Positions 20,883 to 37,849 of a DNA stretch of 37,920 nucleotides are shown here, one piece after another. Both the position numbers and the translations under genes were made by a program. Under the pieces are notes generated by a model. The model was not told where the DNA came from and did not search any database. It was given only the letters and a program-made list of their open reading frames with translations. The stretch spans positions 1 to 37,920 of the forward strand of contig JAFWLO010000011.1 in the NCBI GenBank assembly GCA_017545595.1, written 5' to 3'. Each line of letters begins with the position of its first letter. The first letter of the stretch is position 1. The stretch is from Candidatus Saccharimonadota bacterium (GTDB lineage Bacteria; Patescibacteriota; Saccharimonadia; Saccharimonadales; Saccharimonadaceae).

Positions 20883-20891
20883 ATTATAGCA
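20883..20891 (-). promoter_or_regulatory. Extended -10 promoter of MIP gene
   Basis: On the minus strand TGC-TATAAT (hexamer 20888-20883) predicts a start near 20876 and a leader of about 25 bases. It lies back to back with the plus-strand promoter at 20898-20906, so polymerase footprints must overlap. Confidence 0.7.
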
Positions 20892-20897
20892 CGAATA

Positions 20898-20906
20898 TGA
20901 TATAAT
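20898..20906 (+). promoter_or_regulatory. Extended -10 promoter of small membrane protein gene
   Basis: TGA-TATAAT (hexamer 20901-20906) predicts a start near 20913 and a 37-base leader that carries AGGAG at 20941-20945, four bases before the ATG at 20950. Confidence 0.7.
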
Positions 20907-31990: not shown

Positions 31991-33811
31991 CTAGTGTTTC
32001 TTCAAAGCCTCCGTGTTAGCGATTAACCTCTCTACGAACGCCTTTTTCGCCTCAGGATAGTTTTTGTTATCTCCCCTCCAAGCCTCCAAAGCTGGCTCCT
32101 GAACCGCACGCGCAAAGGAGAAGGAAACTGGCCAAGGAAATGGCCCTTGATTCGTGATAGCCTGAAGATTCTCCGTCGCCTGTTCCGGCGTTTGCCCGCC
32201 AGACAAGAAGACTACCCCAGCGACATCCTTAGGAACAAATCTCTTAAGAACCCTTGAAGTCCAAAGCCCAACCTGTTCCGGAGAAGATTGTTGCGTATAT
32301 TTCTTCCCGGCACAAATCATATTCACCTTCAAAATCACCGCATTCATCTGGACCTGCTTCTCTTTAAGCTCTCTAAACAACTCTCTAAGAATTATCCCCG
32401 TATATCCTGCGCATTTCTCAATCGGATAATCCCCGTCATAAACCACCTCCGGCTCCACAATCGGCACAATCCTCGCCCTCTGACAAGCTTTCGCGTACTC
32501 CGCCAAAATTTCCACATTTTTAAGAATCTCATTTTTCGACGGCGTTGTCTCAGAAATCTCAAAAGCCGCCCTCCACTTCGCAAACCTCAGTCCCATCTCA
32601 TAATATTCATCAAGCCTCTCGTCTATCCCCTCGAGTCCAAGCGTGTATTTTTCGCTCGACCCAGAAAAATTCTGAAGCCCGAGATCAACTTTTATCCCCG
32701 GAATAACCCCTCTATTCGTCAAAAACTGCACGAAATTCTGCCCGTCGTCCGCTTTCTGCCTCGCCGTCTCGTCGAACAAAATCACCCCATTAACATATTT
32801 CTCTAGTCCTTCAGCCGTAAAAAACAAGTTTCGATAGTCTCGACGATGCTGATAATCGTCAGGAATCCCAGCTATCTCAAACTTTTTATGAATCGACCCT
32901 CCAGATTCGTCCGCCGCCAAAATCCCTTTTCCTCTCGTCATCAGTTGCGACGCCATCTGTCTAAGATTAACTCCGCTCGACTTTTCTTCTCGAACCAGCT
33001 CTTCAAGCTCCTCAAAATCTTTTGTCTCATCGAGCCTCGTATTCTCTATATTAAACTTCGCCATAAGCAGGGAATCACCTACGGTTTTCCTCCTCAGCGC
33101 CGCCCCGAACACACTCGCTGCTACAATAGAATACGTCGTAAGATGCGTAAACAGCTCTGTCTTTCTTAGTTTCGCAAATTTCACCTCTGTTTTTTCAATA
33201 GAAACGCCCTCTTCAGAAATCCGACAAACCCTCCCCCTTGAAGAAATCCCCTTCGTCTCTTTATCCGCAAACACCAGTTCCGCTCTCTCGACAAGTGGAA
33301 TTGAAGCCTTAGTCAACTTCTTCGGCGCATAAATCGCGAGCCTCGTCCTCGGATTTTCCTCTAAAATCTTCGAGATATCTTCAGCGAGTTTATTAGAAAT
33401 AATCGCCGACCTATCCACAAAAATCCACCCATATTTTTTGTCAAAATCCTCTGGATCTATCTCCGTCGCGCGTTTTTCCGTCGGAACAAGATAAGAAATC
33501 TGTTCCCCAGCACACAAAATATATCTATGATTAATGTTTTTCACCTTAGAATAATCAAAATCGCCTCTCTCGAGTCGAATATCCTCGCTAAACACATCCG
33601 CCTCGATTCCGAACCTCCTAAGCACCTCAAGCGTAACCACAACCCCAGAAAACACACTAGTCCTCTTAAAGAACTCGTGTGCACTCCCATCAAACCCCCA
33701 ATCAAGCCACTTCACCCCTCTCTCGTCCGTTTCGAGCTCCTCTTTCCGTTCATTCAACATCAAATAACTATCTTTTAACACATTTCCAACAATCAAGATC
33801 TTTTCGCTCAT
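31991..33811 (-). CDS. Degenerate PfkB-like domain fused to class I fructose-bisphosphate aldolase
   Basis: A 606-residue fusion. Residues about 285-606 are a class I aldolase, which cleaves fructose 1,6-bisphosphate to two triose phosphates through a lysine Schiff base. Landmarks are RGKGILAADES (293-303), GIKVDLG (372-378), AKWRAAFEI (411-419, Lys412), IVEPEV (451-456) and the Schiff-base Lys495 in ILKVNM, then FLSGGQTPEQA (535-545). Residues 1 to about 265 resemble a PfkB/ribokinase fold (opening KILIVGNVLKDSY), but the C-terminal anion-hole motif, usually DTxGAGD, appears as THLTTYSIVAAS (222-233), so the catalytic base seems lost. The front half may therefore be structural or regulatory. 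The start at 33811 is set by the -10 element directly upstream; a longer frame was rejected. Confidence 0.87.
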   Translation of the reverse strand: MSEKILIVGNVLKDSYLMLNERKEELETDERGVKWLDWGFDGSAHEFFKRTSVFSGVVVTLEVLRRFGIEADVFSEDIRLERGDFDYSKVKNINHRYILCAGEQISYLVPTEKRATEIDPEDFDKKYGWIFVDRSAIISNKLAEDISKILEENPRTRLAIYAPKKLTKASIPLVERAELVFADKETKGISSRGRVCRISEEGVSIEKTEVKFAKLRKTELFTHLTTYSIVAASVFGAALRRKTVGDSLLMAKFNIENTRLDETKDFEELEELVREEKSSGVNLRQMASQLMTRGKGILAADESGGSIHKKFEIAGIPDDYQHRRDYRNLFFTAEGLEKYVNGVILFDETARQKADDGQNFVQFLTNRGVIPGIKVDLGLQNFSGSSEKYTLGLEGIDERLDEYYEMGLRFAKWRAAFEISETTPSKNEILKNVEILAEYAKACQRARIVPIVEPEVVYDGDYPIEKCAGYTGIILRELFRELKEKQVQMNAVILKVNMICAGKKYTQQSSPEQVGLWTSRVLKRFVPKDVAGVVFLSGGQTPEQATENLQAITNQGPFPWPVSFSFARAVQEPALEAWRGDNKNYPEAKKAFVERLIANTEALKKH

Positions 33812-33817
33812 GCTAAA

Positions 33818-33826
33818 ATTATACCA
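33818..33826 (-). promoter_or_regulatory. Extended -10 promoter, leaderless start of aldolase fusion
   Basis: On the minus strand TGG-TATAAT (hexamer 33823-33818), six bases before the ATG at 33811; no Shine-Dalgarno site. The remaining 130 bases up to bL27 hold only the bL27 terminator. Confidence 0.75.
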
Positions 33827-33927
33827 CATTACCCCGCCTAAAAACACTATGAGGTCTAAAATCCTAAAACCAACTCCAAAAACTCAACCAAAACAAATCA
33901 AAAATCCTCAAAAACCTATCTGAGAAC

Positions 33928-34236: not shown

Positions 34237-35562
34237 TTATTGTTTCCTTAATACTATTATTTCGCGAGCAACAATCTGTCCTTCTCTGTGATAAAGCAAG
34301 TCTTCTTGCCTCGCGTTTCTAAAACTTACTACATTATACCCCAACCCTTGAATTTCGTCAAGGATATTCAGCCGAGAATACTCCCCGTTTTCCCTAAGCC
34401 ACGCCGGAACCGCAATCACAACCGGCGTATCCGCTTCTATCTGCCCAGAAAGATTCTTCAAAAACCCTAAAATCGTCGCCTTGCACGTCATTTTTTCTTG
34501 TTTTAGTTTAATTTCCGCTGGCGGATTCGACATCGGTTGCCCGAGATACGTCTCAGCAACAACCGCCCCTATCTTTGCCTTCTCCCCCCAGTTAAACTCC
34601 GTCGCGTCCCCCTCAGAAAGAATAAAATCGCTATATCTCTTCATTATATCACACTTAACTAATTTTGTCAAGGTTTCATCTGTTACATCATCTGTTTCTT
34701 CGCCATTTTCCCCGCTCGAACTTTTCCTAAAACTGCCTTTTCTGTCCGAAAGGCTTGAAAAACTGTTTTTACTCTCCGCACACTCAAGAAGCCACTCTAA
34801 ATTCCTCTTCGTGTATTCGACCATCCTCGGGTTCAAATCCGTCCCAAAAACTCGGTATCCGTCCAAAAACGCCTCCTGAAGCACCACTCCCGTCCCACAA
34901 AACGGGTCGAGAATCCTCGTCCCCGTCTCAAGCGGCCCTGCAAGGTTAATTAGAATCTGCGCAAGCTTCGGAGGCAACATCCCGACTTTAGCATCTCTTG
35001 CTGGCCTCCTCTGATCTCGCTTCGCATAGTCCGAAATGTTCTGAACGTGAGTCAACTTGAAATTTCCGAATTTCGTCAACATAATTTCAACATGATTTTT
35101 CTTTTCCGCAAGTTGGTTATGATGAGAAGTAGCAGTTGACAACACAGCAGTTTTATTTTCCAAAACCCGAACACTCCTGCCCTCTCTCGAGAGTATCTTC
35201 TTTAGTTTAAGCGCCTCGGCTCGAACTGCTCTTACGTCTCCCGTCCGGAAGTCAGAAACCCCGAGCGTAATTTTTCCTTCTGGAAGCCTCAAAAGAAAAC
35301 GGACAAGTTCTTTCTCGCCCTTCGGAAGCTCCTCTCCAAATTTCAACGTCCCCCCAAACCTAGAAAAATCCGGAAGCTCCCATGTCTCAAACGTCGCGAG
35401 TCCGCACCCGCCAAAAAACTCTGTATCCCTCTCCGAAGAACCTCTTCGAATCCTTCCTAGTCCCTGTGTTGTCTCGCCCATATACTTTACATCAGAAAAA
35501 AAGCTCTCAAGCTCCGCAAGCGAAATTTTTGGCTGTCTCCCGAGAACGGCTAGATATTTCAT
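34237..35562 (-). CDS. TRM11/UPF0020-like RNA methyltransferase
   Basis: Predicted SAM-dependent methyltransferase, probably acting on a guanine in RNA. The 441 residues divide into an N-terminal THUMP-like region (1 to about 180) and a Rossmann methyltransferase core. The family segment RRPARDAKVGMLPPKLAQILINLA (185-208) precedes SAM motif I DPFCGTG (219-225) and GTDLNPRM (240-247). A poorly conserved, Ser/Glu-rich insertion occupies about 262-313. The usual catalytic (D/N)PP(Y/F) motif IV is not found at its expected place, where ETYLGQP (337-343) occurs; SNPPAE (345-350) follows shortly after. The substrate is unknown: tRNA as for Trm11, or rRNA, are both possible. It is divergent from the gene at 35598 and coupled to bL27. 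Confidence 0.8.
   Translation of the reverse strand: MKYLAVLGRQPKISLAELESFFSDVKYMGETTQGLGRIRRGSSERDTEFFGGCGLATFETWELPDFSRFGGTLKFGEELPKGEKELVRFLLRLPEGKITLGVSDFRTGDVRAVRAEALKLKKILSREGRSVRVLENKTAVLSTATSHHNQLAEKKNHVEIMLTKFGNFKLTHVQNISDYAKRDQRRPARDAKVGMLPPKLAQILINLAGPLETGTRILDPFCGTGVVLQEAFLDGYRVFGTDLNPRMVEYTKRNLEWLLECAESKNSFSSLSDRKGSFRKSSSGENGEETDDVTDETLTKLVKCDIMKRYSDFILSEGDATEFNWGEKAKIGAVVAETYLGQPMSNPPAEIKLKQEKMTCKATILGFLKNLSGQIEADTPVVIAVPAWLRENGEYSRLNILDEIQGLGYNVVSFRNARQEDLLYHREGQIVAREIIVLRKQ
34333..34361 (-). promoter_or_regulatory. Internal promoter for bL27 within the methyltransferase gene
   Basis: On the minus strand: -35 TTGACG (34361-34356), 17 bases, -10 TATAAT (34338-34333), overlapping codons about 401-410 of the methyltransferase gene. 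It would give a leader of about 90 bases for bL27. Confidence 0.65.
34643..34671 (-). promoter_or_regulatory. Consensus promoter-like sequence inside the methyltransferase insertion
   Basis: On the minus strand: -35 TTGACA (34671-34666), 17 bases, -10 TATAAT (34648-34643) preceded by TGA. It encodes residues about 297-311. The plus-strand stretch 34631-34648 is identical to 26908-26925. Whether it is active is unknown. Confidence 0.55.
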
Positions 35563-35569
35563 TATCTAA

Positions 35570-35591
35570 ATTATACCACATGTGCTATAAT
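35570..35591. promoter_or_regulatory. Palindromic back-to-back promoter for two leaderless genes
   Basis: ATTATA-c-CACATGTG-c-TATAAT: two consensus -10 hexamers (minus strand 35575-35570, plus strand 35586-35591) separated by ten bases around a perfect CACATGTG palindrome. The minus-strand ATG (35562) starts seven bases and the plus-strand ATG (35598) six bases beyond its hexamer. Only 35 bases separate the two start codons. Confidence 0.8.
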
Positions 35592-35597
35592 TTTCCT

Positions 35598-36740
35598 ATG
35601 TCGTCTAAAAAACAAACACGCGAATTCTCCCCCTTAAAAGCCCTCCTCTCCGTCGTGACCTTCGGTATTGTCATCTTTATAATTATTTCAAACTGGGACG
35701 ATATCATGGTTGCTCTCGACCACATCGGCGAAACCAATCTCCTCATTCTCCTTCTTCTCATTCCTGAACAGCTCATGATGCTCTATTGTGGTGGAAAAAT
35801 CTTTTTCTCGTATCACGACGAAAAGCGTCCTCTCTCTGCTCCCGAGCCGAAAACCTCTGAGCTGATTCGCATCTCCCTTGAAAGCAACTTCGCTCGCCAA
35901 GCTTATCCCTCCGCTGGCCTGAGCAGCGCGGCCTTTCTCGCCTGGAGGCTCAAACCCTACCAATTCACCTCCGCCCAAACCAGTTTCATCTATATCCTCC
36001 GTTATTTCGCCATCGTCTGCACAAACCAAGCCCAAACCCTCCTCGCCGTCCTCGTTATCGCTTTCTCCTTCGACCTCACCCCTGCCGGCCAAACTATTCT
36101 CCTTCTAGCCGGCTTCATCGCCATTCTGACCGGTCTTTTTCTCGTAGCAACCGTCTTCCTCATCGCAAACAAGTCCCGCATCGTCTGGTTTGCGACTCGC
36201 GGAACAGCCTTCATTAATTACCTCGTTCGAAAACTCACCTTCGGGAAACGCCGAAAAGTCCTCGACACGAAAAAATCCGAAGAATTCCTCTCCGAACTCC
36301 ACGAAACCTACAAAACCGCCCGAAAAAACCCCATCATCATCAAAAAACCCATCCTCTGGGGAATGTTTTATAGCTTTTTTGAAATCGCTACATACTGGGT
36401 CGTCGCTTCTAGCTTCGGCTACCCCCAGCTTTTTCCTCAAATCATGATTGGCGAAGCCGTTGGCTCCGTCGCTGGAATTTTTATGCCATACGGATTATAC
36501 GAGCTCGGCATGGCCGGTGCCATGGCTAGCCTCGGCGTCGATCTTGGTCTGGCCAGTCTTATCGTCGTCATCACTCGCATACTTATCCTCCTCGAAAGTC
36601 TCGTTCCAGGCTACATCGTCTACCAAACCACACTCTCTCGCTCTAAAAAACTCGGTGAGCCTGCCTACTCGCCCGAACTCGAACATCCTCAAAAACCCGA
36701 TTCAGAAAACGAAACACCAGAAACAGAAAAGGCGAGTTGA
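35598..36740 (+). CDS. YbhN/UPF0104-like multi-pass membrane protein (lysylphosphatidylglycerol synthase TM-type)
   Basis: Polytopic membrane protein of 380 residues, resembling the flippase-like membrane region of MprF/YbhN proteins. Hydrophobic helices are visible near 13-31, 45-65, 125-150, 158-182, 255-275, 280-310 and 315-340. The end of the membrane region has GSVAGIFMPYGLYELGMAGAMASLGVDLGLA, which matches the conserved P-x-G-x-x-E region of the family. There is no catalytic aminoacyl-transferase domain, so lipid translocation or scaffolding is the likely role; the substrate is unknown. The C-terminal 35 residues are charged and cytosolic. The ATG at 35598 was chosen because the -10 ends six bases before it; a longer frame would overlap the methyltransferase gene. 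The stop overlaps the xseA start (TGATG). Confidence 0.7.
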   Translation: MSSKKQTREFSPLKALLSVVTFGIVIFIIISNWDDIMVALDHIGETNLLILLLLIPEQLMMLYCGGKIFFSYHDEKRPLSAPEPKTSELIRISLESNFARQAYPSAGLSSAAFLAWRLKPYQFTSAQTSFIYILRYFAIVCTNQAQTLLAVLVIAFSFDLTPAGQTILLLAGFIAILTGLFLVATVFLIANKSRIVWFATRGTAFINYLVRKLTFGKRRKVLDTKKSEEFLSELHETYKTARKNPIIIKKPILWGMFYSFFEIATYWVVASSFGYPQLFPQIMIGEAVGSVAGIFMPYGLYELGMAGAMASLGVDLGLASLIVVITRILILLESLVPGYIVYQTTLSRSKKLGEPAYSPELEHPQKPDSENETPETEKAS

Positions 36741-37849
36741 TGTCCGACGTCCCCCGTTTTAGCGTTACAGATTTCATCGGAATCTGCAATCAAACCTTGG
36801 ATTACGCATTTTCCAACGTCGAAGTCGAAGGCGAAGTCGCAAACTACCGCATTTCTAAAGGAAAGTGGATTTTCTTCGACCTAAAAGACTCTACTTCGAC
36901 CATAAACTGCTTCATGACCATTTTCCAACTCCGCACAACCATCCGCGAAGGAATGCGCCTCGCCGTCTCCGGAACGCCCCATCTAACCGACACTGGACGC
37001 TTTTCTCTGACTGTTTCAAACGTCCAACCTCTCGGAGAAGGGAACATCAAAAAATCCTTCGTCCTTCTTAAACAAAAACTCGAAAAACAAGGAATTTTTA
37101 GTCCCGAAAGAAAGCGCCCTGTCCCTAAAAACCTCAAATCCCTCGGTGTCATCTCTTCTGTCACCGCCGCCGGATATATAGATTTCATCAAAATCCTCAA
37201 CGACCGCTGGGGAGGTCTCGACATTACCGTTGCAAACTGCGGAGTCCAAGGCCTCTCCGCCGCCGACGAAATCATCCGCGCCATAGATTTTTTCAACCTC
37301 AGAGGCGACGTAGAGATGATAGCAATCGTTCGCGGAGGCGGCTCTGCCGACGATCTCGCCGTTTTTAATGACGAATTTCTCGCAAAACGCATCGCTTCCT
37401 CTCGTATTCCTATCATCACCGGAATCGGCCACGAGGTCGACGAATCACTCGCCGACCTTTCAGCCGACGTCCGCGCTGCAACGCCGACTAACGCCGCTGA
37501 ACTTCTCACTCCCGATAAACGCTCCGAGATTTGGCGAGTTTACGACAATCTCTCCTCTCTCGAAAAATATCTTACTCAATATCTCGAAACACTAAAAGAA
37601 ACAAAGTCCTCCGCCCTCGCTTCCGTCTCCCGAGAAATCGATTCAAGAATCGACCTAAAAATTGGAGAAAACCTTCACAAACAAACCGTCCTTTCCTCCT
37701 TCGACCCAGAAAAAATCCTCAAACAAGGCTACGCCATCTTGAAAGGCGACTTATCCACAGGAAATGTTGTAAAAATTACATTAGCAAAGAAAATCCTCGA
37801 AGCCACAATTAACAGAGTAGAAAACCGCGCAAAACCCAAACTGTTGTAA
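36740..37849 (+). CDS. xseA: Exodeoxyribonuclease VII large subunit
   Basis: Catalytic subunit of exonuclease VII, which cuts single-stranded DNA from both ends into short pieces. From the ATG at 36740 (MSDVPRFSVTDF) it has 369 residues, shorter than the 456 of E. coli. The N-terminal OB fold (about 1-100) contains NVEVEGEVANYRISKGKWIFFDLKD. The catalytic domain holds LGVISSVTAAGYIDF, the VRGGGSADDLAVFND motif and ITGIGHEVDESLADLSADVRAATPTNAAEL, all diagnostic. The shortened C-terminal coiled coil (about 255-310) is where XseB subunits would bind. The stop codon lies within a 21-base inverted repeat. xseB is not visible in the window but could follow directly. Confidence 0.95.
   Translation: MSDVPRFSVTDFIGICNQTLDYAFSNVEVEGEVANYRISKGKWIFFDLKDSTSTINCFMTIFQLRTTIREGMRLAVSGTPHLTDTGRFSLTVSNVQPLGEGNIKKSFVLLKQKLEKQGIFSPERKRPVPKNLKSLGVISSVTAAGYIDFIKILNDRWGGLDITVANCGVQGLSAADEIIRAIDFFNLRGDVEMIAIVRGGGSADDLAVFNDEFLAKRIASSRIPIITGIGHEVDESLADLSADVRAATPTNAAELLTPDKRSEIWRVYDNLSSLEKYLTQYLETLKETKSSALASVSREIDSRIDLKIGENLHKQTVLSSFDPEKILKQGYAILKGDLSTGNVVKITLAKKILEATINRVENRAKPKLL
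37768..37780 (+). promoter_or_regulatory. Dyad TGTAA-N3-TTACA inside xseA
   Basis: TGTAAAAATTACA, a perfect inverted repeat with a three-base centre. It resembles the core of the larger dyad 77 bases downstream (centre to centre). It is coding (Val-Lys-Ile-Thr), so its regulatory status is uncertain. Confidence 0.25.

Follow-up and report, generated by a model that had tools for sequence, protein, structure and literature searches.

Abutting extended -10 promoters predicted between two divergent, putatively leaderless genes of a Candidatus Saccharimonadota genome

The extended -10 promoters of Gram-positive bacteria, also described as -16 region promoters, carry TRTGN 5' of TATAAT and have a lower need for a -35 element. 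Among leaderless genes, the bacterial 'TA-led' class is recognized by a -10 hexamer beginning about 12 bp before the start codon (Zheng et al. 2011, PMC3160421); the text of that survey makes no mention of TM7. Divergent initiation from symmetric DNA, with steric exclusion being expected, is known from the bidirectional promoters of Warman et al., which share one -10 element and whose starts lie 7-25 bp apart, 18 bp being typical (PMC10268837, PMC12825309). Finally, the conjugation switch of plasmid pLS20 (PMC4207663) contains overlapping back-to-back divergent sigma-70 promoters at which polymerases can compete.

The locus considered here resembles each of these systems in part. It lies in the window, namely the whole stretch of 37,920 nucleotides that was analysed (contig JAFWLO010000011.1 of assembly GCA_017545595.1). 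While it has in common with the bidirectional promoters the symmetric DNA, the divergent initiation and the expected steric exclusion, it contains two -10 elements instead of a shared one, with predicted starts about 36 bp apart. It is back-to-back and overlapping in the manner of pLS20 (PMC4207663), but it has no known regulator or looping, both of its promoters are extended -10 and predicted to be leaderless, and the gap measures 35 bp. The spacing from -10 to start codon is that of the 'TA-led' genes (PMC3160421), whereas the predicted leaderless starts are marked here by a TG-extended TRTGNTATAAT. Unlike the Gram-positive -16 region promoters, the TRTGN promoter is here joined to the start codon, the leader being absent.

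The two genes diverge, and the 35 bases between their ATG codons read TATCTAA-ATTATA-C-CACA/TGTG-C-TATAAT-TTTCCT (methyltransferase side on the left, YbhN side on the right, the slash marking the centre). The methyltransferase ATG occupies 35562-35560 on the (-) strand and the YbhN ATG 35598-35600 on the (+) strand. On the (-) strand, TATAAT at 35575-35570 stands 7 nt before the methyltransferase ATG, and its (+) strand counterpart at 35586-35591 stands 6 nt before the YbhN ATG, these being two separate hexamers 10 bp apart. Both gaps place the predicted +1 at the start codon, although on the (-) strand the usual spacing rule would set it either at the A of the ATG or one base upstream. An alternative YbhN start at the ATG at 35580, within the palindrome, was set aside since it would precede the predicted +1. 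While the original prediction rightly recognized the two hexamers, it overlooked that both belong to extended -10 elements with TGN immediately 5' of TATAAT, namely TGTGgTATAAT for the methyltransferase (35570-35580, (-) strand) and TGTGcTATAAT for the YbhN-like gene (35581-35591, (+) strand). The former fits the genome consensus TRTGNTATAAT and recurs as the same element in relatives.

The 22-bp palindrome ATTATAcCACA/TGTGcTATAAT announced by the original prediction is indeed found at 35570-35591, with one mismatched pair. Together with its AA/TT flanks it forms a 26-bp inverted repeat (35568-35593, no strand) whose arms, 35568-35580 and 35581-35593, are complementary at 12 of 13 pairs without any loop, and which is the only 26-mer of such quality in the window. 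A first-order Markov simulation put the expected number per window at 0.05 if the arms measure 13 bp and at 0.33 if they measure 11 bp, with one mismatch. By itself the palindrome is just moderately improbable, and the weight rests on the two TRTGNTATAAT elements and their distances to the ATG codons rather than on the palindrome alone.

On the left, the site faces a predicted leaderless RMKL/TRM11-like methyltransferase of 441 aa (34237-35562, (-) strand; PF01170, E 2e-8; TIGR01177 below its cut-off), the start of which is backed by the -10 spacing and by relatives that align from residue 1. The gene for ribosomal protein L27 (33963-34235, (-) strand; PF01016, E 9e-22) begins 1 base after the methyltransferase stop, with a Shine-Dalgarno-like AAGGA purine stretch 5' of its ATG, and is probably co-transcribed with the methyltransferase. 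On the right, a YbhN-like membrane protein of the LPG_synthase_TM family (380 aa, 35598-36740, (+) strand; PF03706, 39.8 bits against a cut-off of 33.4) is likewise predicted to be leaderless, and its stop is overlapped by xseA, encoding the exonuclease VII large subunit (36737-37849, (+) strand; TIGR00237, 281 bits; PF02601), which is probably co-transcribed with it. Since L27 and xseA follow directly downstream, each promoter probably serves an operon of its own.

In the 0.74 Mb genome, TGNTATAAT-N6-ATG occurs at 58 exact sites and TGNTATAAT-N4..8-ATG at 97, one of which is the YbhN promoter, while the reversed pattern gives 0 in each case. Distances between promoter and ATG were counted in a 296-kb sample of genome stretches, in which an ATG lies exactly 6 nt after TGNTATAAT at 26 of 80 sites (background about 1), this being the peak for the genome; for TATAAT lacking the TG, the same distance is found in 3 of 208 cases against a background of 2.4, with no peak. 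The logo drawn from this sample, built on 25 sites with an ORF, reads TRTGNTATAAT, with T-17 in 23/25 and a purine at -16 in 22/25, and contains no -35 hexamer apart from a weak T-35 (17/25). The predicted leaderless promoter of this genome is TRTGNTATAAT followed by 6 nt and ATG. A single sigma-70 gene was found, in which region 3.0 (RIPVHMVETINK) and region 4.2 (TRERIRQIEAKAL) are both intact; judged by eye against the E. coli motif, RIPVHMVETINK retains the TG-reading residues of region 3.0, His455 and Glu458 in E. coli, the His and the Glu both being kept. A sigma-70 scan requiring both a -35 and a -10 missed the two promoters of the site because it demands a -35. Extended -10 promoters require no -35 element. 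It was originally pointed out that the locus leaves no room for -35 elements, which is true but poses no problem: as both -10 elements are extended, a -35 should be unneeded, and sites of this class throughout the genome have no -35 hexamer beyond a weak T.

Taken together, the site very probably consists of two independent sigma-70 extended -10 promoters, zero bases apart, each of which would drive a leaderless mRNA. The left promoter would give a leaderless methyltransferase mRNA, probably including L27, and the right one a leaderless YbhN mRNA, probably including xseA. The ordinary holoenzyme would read the TG through sigma region 3.0 and TATAAT through region 2, with no -35 box. Two facing copies of the 11-mer TRTGNTATAAT, once abutted, would give ATTATANCAYA/TRTGNTATAAT, which is exactly the 22-mer of the window. 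Since most bases of this 11-bp promoter unit are fixed, abutting copies must form a near palindrome in which only the N pair is free; CACATGTG is then CACA plus TGTG and the C/C mismatch is the free N, so that no base of the 22-mer needs another explanation. Two such promoters also predict that swapping the centre from CACATGTG to CATATATG would be without effect. The site would then be a compact overlapping divergent promoter, an extreme yet ordinary case of a known type. In proposing a divergent promoter pair for two leaderless genes within 35 bases, the original prediction agrees with the -10 spacing and with its conservation in relatives.

These relatives were assembled as 17 distinct divergent methyltransferase/YbhN pairs of the same genus, i.e. 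the present one and 16 others, the named same-genus relatives with both proteins being Candidatus Saccharibacteria, mostly from the ruminant gut. Elements of the -10 type face both genes in all 17 pairs, although the TG is missing on the methyltransferase side of one divergent same-genus locus (L017). The layout is compact in 13 of the 17, with TG-TG spacers of 2, 2, 4, 4, 4, 6 (five times), 7, 8 and 9, and the spacer is longer than 9 in the other four. In three loci from other families (L029-L031), the pair is divergent but the paired element is absent. Within the genus the pair is often split, and each promoter also occurs alone: where YbhN does not diverge from the methyltransferase, TGNTATAAT-N5..8-ATG is kept in 32 of 37 loci. 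As the YbhN promoter is kept at such non-divergent loci, the promoters belong to the genes individually, and the palindrome appears as a by-product of their close head-to-head placement. The functional link between methyltransferase and YbhN that had been drawn from the site is not upheld either, since the pair is so often split and YbhN then keeps the same promoter type.

With predicted starts about 36 bp apart, the footprints of polymerases in the two orientations would overlap, each enzyme covering the start of the other. Mutual exclusion of polymerases is likely here, in the sense that opposite-facing enzymes would clash and initiation would probably be exclusive per event, which need not amount to regulation. 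It has nevertheless to be weighed whether the abutment was selected as a switch, polymerase competition making the two operons mutually exclusive. The overlapping footprints and the recurrent compact facing layout speak for such a switch, which we consider improbable nonetheless: gene order shifts freely within the genus with each promoter found alone too, the nine head-to-head sites of the genome span spacers of 4 to 25, and the compactness of a 0.74 Mb genome suffices as a cause. Besides, the basal activity of five tested E. coli bidirectional promoters was too low for polymerase competition (PMC12825309). To a similarly small degree, it is conceivable that the genus, one of gut Saccharibacteria, uses the leaderless extended -10 promoter as a common mode of initiation and that, where two such promoters touch, polymerase orientation at the 35-bp gap balances the L27 operon against the xseA operon.

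The reading of the palindrome as an operator, in which a dimeric regulator bound to CACATGTG would control both genes jointly, is far less probable still. The dyad is near-perfect, and the closest named relative (L085) has a perfect one, ATTATAGCATATATGCTATAAT; L085 and L009 are the two perfect palindromes among the same-genus pairs, as expected where the two N happen to pair. However, an operator of this kind should show symmetry and fixed spacing conserved beyond the promoter elements, and neither was found. The layout is kept among relatives, but the palindrome is not conserved as would be expected of a shared protein site: CACATGTG occurs in 0 of the 16 other same-genus divergent pairs, and spacer lengths vary between 2 and 9 or exceed 9, whereas a dimer site needs fixed spacing. 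In the same line, the symmetry of the N pair is at chance, the two N being complementary in 5 of 14 methyltransferase/YbhN pairs against a shuffled mean of 4.3, and in 7 of 29 pattern-found head-to-head sites across the genus against 7.2 expected. The three abutting methyltransferase/YbhN sites (window, L040 and L085) have the self-complementary 4-nt spacers CATG, TATA and TATA, which allows some small scope for additional symmetry, although TRTG alone makes such spacers fairly likely. Finally, the genome promoter consensus calls for each base of the palindrome, and unrelated gene pairs and a tRNA use the same layout. The two TRTG elements account for CACATGTG, which had been put forward as a protein site governing both genes.

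A bidirectional promoter as defined by Warman and Grainger, with one shared symmetric -10 used both ways, is the least credible reading despite the symmetric promoter DNA and the divergent starts, given two distinct -10 elements 10 bp apart and predicted starts separated by 36 bp against the defining 7-25 bp (PMC10268837, PMC12825309); the site may be similar in its working to this class but is not a member of it.

Two independent extended -10 promoters placed head to head are not restricted to this locus, as the genome contains nine such pairs, with TG-TG spacers of 4-25, that of the present site being the tightest. One of them (L062 1501-1526; G000 C2:24209-24234) is a perfect 26-bp palindrome made of two extended -10 promoters head to head, with a leaderless 342-aa ORF on one side and, on the other, a tRNA-Arg starting 18 nt past the -10. 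Because it is independent of any ATG, this tRNA-Arg site is the best internal evidence of the element being a promoter. Another pair lies in the window itself at 20883-20906 (ATTATAGCACGAATATGATATAAT); its flanking ORFs start farther away, at 31 and 43 nt, and an AAGGAG-type site precedes the (+) strand ATG. Elsewhere (L070 1490-1590; G000 C15:3214-3258), head-to-head leaderless promoters are found from which no ORF of 40 aa starts in either direction; on the (+) strand, the short CxxC peptide MATFFCTNCGERILYTN, which may be a leader peptide or a remnant, is encoded ahead of a 264-aa ORF.

With regard to its spread in the order, the TRTG head-to-head arrangement occurs 2-7 times per genome in six same-genus genomes (reversed control, 0), and outside the genus at one site in one genome among 149 of the order. 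TGNTATAAT-N6-ATG was counted 58, 86 and 100 times in three same-genus genomes (including G069 and G071), compared with 1-19 times per genome in 77 further genomes of the order. This abundance probably reflects a change, at the level of the genus, in how promoters and translation starts are used. A search of the open literature on leaderless genes of Saccharibacteria or Patescibacteria and on start mapping in Nanosynbacter retrieved nothing relevant, which does not exclude that such work exists.

A further predicted leaderless promoter of the window, TGGTATAAT-TTTAGC-ATG (33826-33809, (-) strand), precedes a 618-aa ORF (31991-33847, (-) strand) that by eye has the appearance of a fusion of a sugar-kinase-like and an aldolase-like domain. 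By promoter position, its predicted start is the ATG at 33811 and not the upstream GTG, so that mechanical start calls would be overlong there.

A striking palindrome can thus arise without a regulator, from a long strict promoter motif combined with tight gene packing. For this genus, TRTGNTATAAT, 6 nt and ATG offer a simple rule to find starts and the first genes of operons, and this rule corrects the start codons of genes annotated with upstream starts. The more useful fact is how abundant predicted leaderless extended -10 promoters are in this genus, compared with the rest of the order.
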